A DNA stretch of 5,026 nt from Desulfurococcales archaeon (GTDB taxonomy: Archaea > Thermoproteota > Thermoprotei_A > Sulfolobales > Acidilobaceae), in assembly GCA_015521095.1 (NCBI GenBank), contig WAOU01000080.1, forward strand, positions 1-5,026. Direction: 5' to 3'. Under the pieces are notes generated by a model. It ran no database searches and had not been told where the DNA came from. It was given only the letters and a program-made list of their open reading frames with translations. Each line of letters opens with the position of its first letter. The first letter of the stretch is position 1. A program made the translations under genes and the position numbers. Shown here one piece after another: positions 52 to 320 of this stretch.

Positions 52-320
52 TACAGGACTGGACGCGGGGGTGCCCGAGCCTGGTCAAAGGGGTCGGGCT
101 GAGGACCCGATGGCGTAGGCCTGCGTGGGTTCAAATCCCACCCCCCGCACCAAGAGGCTAATGCCTTATCATCCACTTCATCCTTGAAGCGTTCTAGGAG
201 CTTCTTTAGGCTCAGGTGCAACAGGACTTTCTTACGCTTGGTTACTGGATCATATTGTCTGATTACGACGTAATTGTATGTTTTACCATTGTGCTTAACC
301 TTTTTAACAAATATGTACAT
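27..320 (-). CDS. SSV-type integrase N-terminal fragment, int(N), reading into tRNA-Leu
   Basis: The frame starts at ATG 320-318; an in-frame stop at 332-330 excludes a longer N-terminus. Residues 1-56 are element-derived: a basic beta-type start with a Lys/Gly/Tyr pattern (residues 4-35), then a short amphipathic helix (about 37-48). This resembles the small N-terminal region of SSV1-type tyrosine recombinases by general pattern, not by close identity. From residue 57 (codon 152-150, the complement of CCA) it translates the tRNA gene in antisense, giving a WCGGWDLNPRR stretch like the DPPGFEPG segment that SSV1 integrase derives from its att site. In SSV-type elements integration splits the gene into a short int(N) at one tRNA copy and a long int(C) at the other end. 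No catalytic R...HxxR...Y residues are present, as expected for int(N). The residues beyond about 72 and the stop at 29-27 belong to the host tRNA and its upstream region and are probably not functional. A solo relic is also possible. Confidence 0.6.
   Translation of the reverse strand: MYIFVKKVKHNGKTYNYVVIRQYDPVTKRKKVLLHLSLKKLLERFKDEVDDKALASWCGGWDLNPRRPTPSGPQPDPFDQARAPPRPVLYNIIVGLF
65..152 (+). tRNA. tRNA-Leu (anticodon GAG), CCA encoded
   Basis: A complete class II tRNA folds here. The acceptor stem pairs 65-71 with 142-148 over seven G-C pairs, followed by discriminator A149 and a genome-encoded CCA at 150-152. The D stem pairs 74-76 with 90-92. The anticodon stem pairs 94-98 with 106-110 around the loop 99-105, which gives anticodon GAG (101-103), reading leucine CUC/CUU codons. 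A long variable arm (111-124) is as expected for tRNA-Leu. The T stem pairs 125-129 with 137-141 around a seven-base TTCAAAT loop. No intron is seen. Nearly every stem pair is G-C, which suggests a hyperthermophile. No T-run follows the gene; instead an opposing integrase-like reading frame abuts it, so the 3' half is probably an attachment site. Confidence 0.97.
106..152 (+). other. Putative attachment site (att) in the 3' half of tRNA-Leu
   Basis: The tRNA 3' half, from the 3' strand of the anticodon stem through CCA, is the segment normally shared between attP and attB in SSV-type integration. Here it is also the segment where the int(N)-like frame crosses from element sequence into tRNA sequence. 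The left limit is estimated from known cases, because no second copy is available in the window to define the exact core. Confidence 0.45.

Follow-up and report, generated by a model that had tools for sequence, protein, structure and literature searches.

The virus APOV1 of the family Guttaviridae integrates at a tRNA-Leu gene and carries a glycoside hydrolase, according to the Guttaviridae profile of the International Committee on Taxonomy of Viruses (PMC5882108). In Sulfolobus islandicus LAL14/1, a passage of PMC3718332 places some intN fragments next to conjugative-plasmid genes. Integrases that cut their own gene are treated in a section of PMC8371274 as an acknowledged paradox in archaea, in that the integrated element should be trapped and yet such elements pervade populations. 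Here we analysed 5,026 nucleotides of DNA from a Desulfurococcales archaeon (contig WAOU01000080.1, positions 1 to 5,026; hereafter the window), in which the N-terminal part of an SSV-type integrase gene, int(N), reads into the 3′ end of a tRNA-Leu(GAG) gene. We put the probability at about 0.77 that this int(N) is an orphan, left by a guttavirus-like provirus after loss of the end bearing the C-terminal part of the integrase gene, int(C).

An SSV-type integrase N-terminus reads into tRNA-Leu(GAG)

The left part of the window contains the following features:

65–152, plus strand: intact tRNA-Leu, anticodon GAG (ARAGORN); its 3′ part is the predicted attachment site (att)
96–152, plus strand: predicted att core, the 3′ 57 nt of the tRNA, from homology to far-end repeats of related proviruses
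153–320, minus strand: N-terminal stretch (56 residues) of an SSV-type integrase, int(N), which reads into the 3′ end of the tRNA
27–320, minus strand: whole open frame of 97 residues, int(N) plus tRNA antisense (ATG at 320, stop ending at 27)
321–367, minus strand: former N-terminal extension of int(N) with ATG at 367, now out of frame (alignment with L005, the matching contig of genome G001)
183–299, minus strand: mosaic tract of int(N), residues 8–46 (alignment with the syntenic G001 copy)

Rfam model RF00005 called the same tRNA at 65–149 (57.3 bits), and the att core is present as a single copy within the window. The minus-strand frame consists of 56 residues ahead of the tRNA and then continues as WCGGWDLNPRRPTPSGPQPDPF... 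across it, open to its far side. When the 97-residue product was used as a query, 133 of 134 candidate proteins matched at E ≤ 1, the best with E 2.5e-55, 203 bits and 91% identity over the whole query. Most of the best 120 of these 133 matches combine an integrase-like start with a tRNA-derived tail, and several N-terminal families are represented; a few of the 120 (for example, P0095 and P0108) have the tRNA part without an integrase-like start. Among phages the frame matched the APOV1 integrase (E 8e-12), with 44% over residues 1–77 including part of the tRNA-derived tail. The frame also matched the phrog_5127 integrase (E 0.0022), and a PHROG search with the 56 residues alone gave no match. 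In genome G046 the same tRNA is occupied by a complete provirus, and the int(N) of this provirus is 78% identical to that of the window.

The distribution of int(N) was then determined. A scan of genome contigs found eight loci, six of them in Acidilobaceae metagenome-assembled genomes; a tRNA-Leu (GAG, TAA, CAA or TAG) lies at the match in six of the eight, and no tRNA was found at the other two. A profile built from the residues outside the tRNA reached E values down to 2.9e-31 in other genomes and matched at E ≤ 0.01 in 37 of 214 genomes of the order, Desulfurococcales relatives included. Plasmid records gave 12 matches, all at E 3 or worse, and none of the 90 pattern matches found by scanning viral contigs with the int(N) alignment was confirmed.

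A preliminary description of this DNA had pointed to a minus-strand frame whose 56 integrase-like residues run into the tRNA 3′ end and stay open through it, and had named the arrangement SSV-type. Both statements are borne out, the first by ARAGORN, Rfam, the open reading frame (ORF) at 27–320 and its homologues, the second by the homology of the N-terminus to SSV-type integrases, that of APOV1 among them, and by the entry of the frame into the tRNA 3′ end without a stop; the integrase homologue looked for with residues 1–56 likewise exists, for example in APOV1. The WDLNPRR segment, which the same description had compared with the att-encoded segment of SSV1 integrase, fared differently. It is the product of the tRNA-Leu antisense frame itself, and the frame is open too at tRNA-Leu genes without int(N) (G001 C3:56010, P0095 and P0108). 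We therefore rejected WDLNPRR as evidence for int(N) and relied on the upstream 56 residues. Relative to L005, 13 bp are deleted just upstream of the ATG at 320, which puts a longer start (METDTVL...) out of frame; a similar N-terminal extension is found in P0001–P0006, P0008 and P0009.

The far end is absent from the syntenic contig of a sister genome

L005 (contig C4 of G001; 70,973 bp) matches window positions 1–3737 at 85% DNA identity by blastn, and the two tRNA-Leu(GAG) genes are identical over 88 nt. The order on C4 is that of the window, namely tRNA, int(N), a gene for a 593-residue protein (orf593) and a GH99-family glycoside hydrolase gene, and the two diverge after GH99. Over the 71 kb of C4 neither int(C) nor a second complete att was found. 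Blastn of the tRNA over the contig returned, apart from the gene itself, a single copy (100%) of the first 69 nt, which lies 4.9 kb upstream, on the side away from int(N), and contains about two thirds of the att core.

A search of G001 with the APOV1 integrase revealed eight places. Complete pairs lie at tRNA-Leu(CAA) on C7 (int(C) 28394–29239, int(N) 40052–40288) and at tRNA-Leu(TAA) on C8 (int(C) 224921–225775, int(N) 235186–235422), and int(N) without a partner was found on C4 at tRNA-Leu(GAG) and on C3 at tRNA-Leu(CAG). C3 holds two further short matches to the APOV1 integrase, one of them at tRNA-Leu(TAG). With the int(C) profile, no further partner appeared among the best six of eight matches in G001. 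Thus, in the stretches of G001 examined, int(N) stands at four of five tRNA-Leu genes, and two of these are orphans.

Since the window has one att, C4 has neither int(C) nor a second complete att, and only GH99 among the genes to the right clearly matches related elements (see below), we favour reading the feature in the window as an orphan int(N) scar or remnant and not as part of a surviving element. The claim that int(N) marks one end of an integrated element accordingly holds in part: the DNA to the right likely derives from a former element, as GH99 indicates, and a surviving element is not supported. The empty site at tRNA-Leu(GAG) that had been suggested for comparison was found in part, in genome G043, where no int(N) was shown and the upstream neighbours are kept as in G001.

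One further difference at this locus was observed upstream of the tRNA. G001 has a 4.9-kb insertion there (L005:10257–15271) with genes that we named by eye as an ABC ATPase, a large permease-like protein and a possibly secreted protein; it is bordered by a duplicate of the promoter region and of the first 69 nt of the tRNA. The upstream genes are the same in G043, where they adjoin the tRNA directly.

A GH99 gene of likely guttavirus origin

The right part of the window contains the following features:

706–2487, plus strand: surface-type protein of 593 residues with a Big_7 domain, orf593 (Pfam)
2715–3758, plus strand: GH99-family glycoside hydrolase (Pfam PF16317, homologues)
3737: end of the blastn match to G001 C4 (L005), the right side of the window differing beyond it
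4100–5026, minus strand: incomplete gene, open at the window end; distant homologues, mostly frames of 472–487 residues

The GH99 protein matched PF16317 with E 1.2e-12 and 48.1 bits against a cut-off of 33. Its NEYHE motif aligns with NEWHE of 4acy, weakly for this stretch alone (12.3 bits) and with 39.1 bits for the whole protein, and both acidic residues of the NE[WY]HE motif, which we take to be catalytic in GH99, are present. The protein is 53% identical to APOV1 orf10 over 257 residues. The window was also compared with 279 ORFs from 14 stretches of 13 related elements (two G046 stretches overlap, so that some ORFs were counted twice). Only ORFs bearing int(N) or att and the GH99 ORFs matched clearly; four other matches were short, with E of 0.03–0.05, and were taken as chance.

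GH99 was found at 34 places in 24 of the 214 genomes, and 21 of these places were examined, the 13 weaker or partial ones being left out. At 11 of the 21, neither guttavirus-type genes nor a tRNA-Leu was seen in the stretch examined, and a host origin is possible. This is one of two observations in favour of the view that only int(N) is viral, orf593 and GH99 being ordinary host genes beside the tRNA by chance; the other is that the orf593 homologue of G043 lies beside the upstream neighbours of tRNA-Leu(GAG). We nevertheless consider that view unlikely. At four places GH99 lies among guttavirus-type genes, in G013 and G023 (both at tRNA-Leu(TAA)), G091 (tRNA-Leu(GAG)) and G159 (near tRNA-Glu), and in these blocks it adjoins orf9- or orf11-type genes. 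At four more it stands alone within 1 kb of a tRNA-Leu, in different genomes and at different tRNAs: G015 (GAG), G012 (TAG), G013b (TAG) and G076 (CAG, with GH99 on the strand opposite to its tRNA). At two others, G001 and G066b, the distance to tRNA-Leu is 2.5–3.6 kb, and in G066b GH99 is accompanied by APOV1 orf9 in three pieces. A rough binomial estimate for the 4 of 17 other GH99 places within 1 kb was 2e-5, assuming five tRNA-Leu genes per 1.6 Mb and counting separately G012 and G013b, which are tree neighbours at the same tRNA; 3 of 16 gives 5e-4. In the GH99 tree the genes of the window and of G001 fall together with those of the G023 provirus and of G034 (support 97/92). The GH99 of the window is likely of guttavirus origin.

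Between the window and G001, GH99 shows a nonsynonymous divergence (dN) of 0.10–0.11 and a synonymous divergence (dS) of 0.5–0.6. A dN/dS this far below 1 against the sister copy suggests that GH99 has been kept by selection since the two hosts parted. The loci at tRNA-Leu(GAG) can be arranged as a series of decay, from complete elements in G091 and G046, through int(N) with GH99 in G001 and likely in the window, to G015, with internal stops in GH99 and no int(N) match, and finally G043, without int(N). Separately, the GH99 gene of G123 (L106:1997–3054) ends 20 bp from a tRNA-Asn, with no provirus-type genes in the stretch examined.

Homologues of orf593 at E ≤ 1e-20 occur in 4 of the 214 genomes, and no provirus-type genes were seen beside those of G042 and G043. 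A relationship to APOV1 orf9 was considered and rejected, as there is no similarity. Either host or element could have supplied orf593. In G001, a paralogue of orf593 (42.5%; C4, L025:14645–16360) lies about 9 kb further along the contig than the syntenic copy. The incomplete gene at 4100–5026 gave a weak Pfam match (KaiC, E 0.17) and probably belongs to the host chromosome.

Complete related elements carry both integrase halves

Intact relatives reveal what the window has probably lost. The G046 provirus measures 12.5 kb, with int(N) at tRNA-Leu(GAG) and int(C) in the same orientation. Where both ends of a related element were found, the span is about 8–21 kb; the direct repeats at the two ends measure 57–82 nt in the eight elements compared, and a repeat of 57 nt was found in G073 as well. 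In relatives, int(C) (PF16795) is present beside the second att. Its aligned sequences carry the catalytic set R...K...KxxR...Y, which replaces the R...HxxR...Y that had been predicted beforehand. The complete elements of G001, when compared, are 96% identical in int(C) over 247 residues and 48% in int(N) over 46, and the G013 provirus is near-identical to APOV1. The pairing of int(N) with int(C) covers part of the 37 int(N)-positive genomes, several contigs ending too near int(N).

These dimensions bear on the possibility that the provirus is still complete, with its left end in the window and its right end further on than position 5026. A far end could fall outside the window at such spans, and the match to G001 stops near 3737, so that G001 does not prove the state of the window. 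Several observations speak against this reading: the complete elements examined have virus-type genes about 0–2.5 kb after int(N) (for example, APOV1 orf20 and orf19 types), which are missing here; besides int(N), only GH99 clearly matches the related-element ORFs; the longer int(N) start is frameshifted; and the sister locus in G001 is an orphan. We regard a complete provirus as distinctly improbable.

Three further elements were noted. At 82 nt (L140:4932–5013; tRNA region of L116), the att repeat of G046 extends 21 nt into int(N), so that 21 nt of int(N) are kept beyond the distal att of this provirus, possibly as the relic of an older int(N). The guttavirus-type genes at one end of contig G068:C128 (L132, L142; 15,508 bp) recur at the other, an arrangement suggestive of a circular virus genome of about 12.5 kb whose integrase, of 341 residues, is uninterrupted. 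The guttavirus-type gene block of G159 (L097:4351–5668) starts about 500 bp from a tRNA-Glu and not from a tRNA-Leu.

In four relatives, int(C) is joined in frame across att to an int(N) unlike the proximal one

One SSV-type integration, taken alone, should leave a far end in the order int(C), att, host DNA. We found int(N) beyond att at 4 of 19 int(C)-end segments compared with 0 of 500 controls. These counts set aside P0140, a PF02386 transporter that had passed the motif filter and was removed after the fact; it gave the APOV1 hit and both control hits, and its inclusion yields 5 of 19 and 2 of 500. In all four cases (G038:C10, G212:C34, G068:C38 and G073:C1) int(C), att and int(N) are joined in frame, and the N part is unlike the element's own. 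Two of the four joined ORFs are full-length (353 and 368 residues), and the other two have decayed or start-less N parts.

In G212:C34, int(C) and att are followed in frame by an int(N) of another type, giving an ORF of 368 residues with R, K, KxxR and Y in place. Among the elements compared, its proximal int(N) and its int(C) both match P0137 best, and its distal N part matches G214 and P0037. In G038:C10 the distal ORF is uninterrupted (353 residues), with an N part that differs from the proximal int(N). In G073, on a contig of 1,910,795 bp from a genome with a listed size of 1.9 Mb, a proximal int(N) stands at tRNA-Leu(CAG), and 18.6 kb away, behind the 57-nt att, int(C) is joined in frame to a P0039-type N part (63% over 46 residues).

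The int(N) of the window and its sister is a mosaic

Divergence between the window and G001 is uneven. Identity is 100% over the tRNA, 93–100% in the two end portions of int(N) and close to 91% over 321–705, and falls to 68% of nucleotides over int(N) residues 8–46, where 22 of 37 differences are at third positions. The Fisher test for this tract gave p 4e-5, for a block chosen after seeing the data. The G001 C4 tract is nearer to the int(N) of the complete provirus on C8 of the same genome (79%) than to the window (68%), and exchange with another int(N) is the simplest reading of the alignment.

The mosaic tract makes the dN/dS of int(N) hard to read. Between the window and G001 dN is 0.12–0.14 and dS 0.7–2.0; as the tract is mosaic, we set these values aside as proof of selection in the host. 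They nonetheless enter into another explanation, in which int(N) has been domesticated as a small host protein, such as a decoy or a DNA-binding subunit, and is kept by selection. Neither the window nor G001 has a stop within the frame, dN is well below dS, and part of PMC8371274 records int(N) transcription in some Sulfolobus elements. On the other side, the divergent tract looks like an exchanged allele, the dN/dS may reflect selection in the virus, the longer start is frameshifted, and the int(N) profile, found in 37 of 214 genomes, does not describe a conserved host gene of the order. Domestication appears very unlikely. Finally, a chance open frame across the tRNA gene, for which the frequent openness of the tRNA-Leu antisense frame (WDLNPRR) might be cited, is refuted by the many homologues of the 56 non-tRNA residues in the same layout, by the 203 bits reached with the whole frame and by the E values of the profile outside the tRNA.

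Discussion

The orphan reading leads to the following scheme. The virus would carry att inside its own integrase gene, and integration at the 3′ half of the tRNA would split that gene, so that int(N) stays next to the tRNA and int(C) comes to lie at the far att. Such a split layout is observed in relatives, and we infer it for the window. Most virus genes would then have been lost, while GH99, likely viral and likely brought in with the element, was probably kept. Because the int(N) frame stays open across att, the int(C) of any later element arriving at this tRNA would be joined in frame to the resident stub, and recombination between the direct repeats of old and new int(N) may have produced the mosaic int(N) of the window and of the sister genome.

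By analogy with the four joins in relatives, a stub of this kind could supply the missing half to the next arriving element. We tentatively extend this to the proposal, to which we give somewhat less than even odds, that orphan int(N) stubs are docking halves that resolve part of the suicidal-integrase paradox: a hybrid integrase in cis could excise the element and would swap N-terminal domains between lineages, and the mosaic int(N) and the G001 pair would be products of such cycles.

Several observations weigh against the scheme. No clear window match to other provirus genes, such as the DnaA-like ATPase and orf9, was found among the 279 ORFs, and the 11 GH99 places mentioned above show neither guttavirus-type genes nor a tRNA-Leu in the stretches examined. 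Good support is limited to 7 of the 19 inner branches of the GH99 tree, in which solo copies mix with provirus copies and cluster no more than shuffled labels do. The far end of the window is judged from G001 alone, whose match stops near 3737, and the low dN relative to dS in int(N) could, by itself, point to selection acting on the stub in the host. As for the joins, no int(N) was found beyond att in 15 of the 19 int(C)-end segments, and three of the four joins are in fragmented assemblies. The join in G068:C38 is like that of G212:C34, but its distal (old) N part has mostly decayed; in G073 the first start codon falls within the matched N part, and the ORF with a start has 314 residues. In G038 it is the distal ORF, not the proximal stub, that looks native and resembles other whole integrases, and the element's own integrase gene may already be a hybrid.

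Measured against the Guttaviridae (APOV1-like viruses), the window has the integration at tRNA-Leu with an APOV1-type integrase and the virus-type glycoside hydrolase, and it shows no clear match to the DnaA-like ATPase, orf9 or the remaining conserved genes, which marks it as a remnant and not a provirus. It ties a glycoside hydrolase gene to these poorly known droplet viruses and suggests that hosts may keep GH99 after the virus has decayed. If an arriving element does obtain its missing half from a resident stub, the paradox of self-cutting integrases gains a simple, testable solution, and int(N) scars would be parts of a life cycle and not debris. In the literature searched, which left subscription papers mostly outside, we found no description of an int(C) fused to a resident stub through integration.

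Among the complete elements compared, the G046 provirus has the closest int(N), at the same tRNA. It is complete, with int(C), and its genome has no GH99 match at E ≤ 1e-5, whereas the window has int(N) and GH99. APOV1 shares with the window the tRNA-Leu target, an SSV-type integrase with att in the gene, int(N) at 44% and the GH99-type hydrolase at 53%. APOV1 differs in being a complete, inducible virus (PMC5882108) and in its position at tRNA-Leu(TAA), whereas in the window only int(N) and GH99 are recognised, at tRNA-Leu(GAG). The intN fragments of S. islandicus are likewise integrase remnants that overlap a tRNA and are read as traces of old integration in the relevant passage of PMC3718332; the intN entries examined there concern Sulfolobus hosts and tRNAs other than tRNA-Leu, whereas the window has likely retained a guttavirus-type GH99. 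Re-use of an occupied site by tyrosine-recombinase elements, which gives arrays at one att, is described in a passage of PMC6563490, which does not mention fusion between the int(C) of an SSV-type element and a resident int(N). The suicidal integrases of SSV type whose int(N) and int(C) are chimeric, and for which hybrid genes are proposed in a section of PMC8371274, also resemble the joins found here. The model set out in that section invokes homologous inversion between elements at different loci, whereas the joins considered here would arise by integration beside a resident stub.
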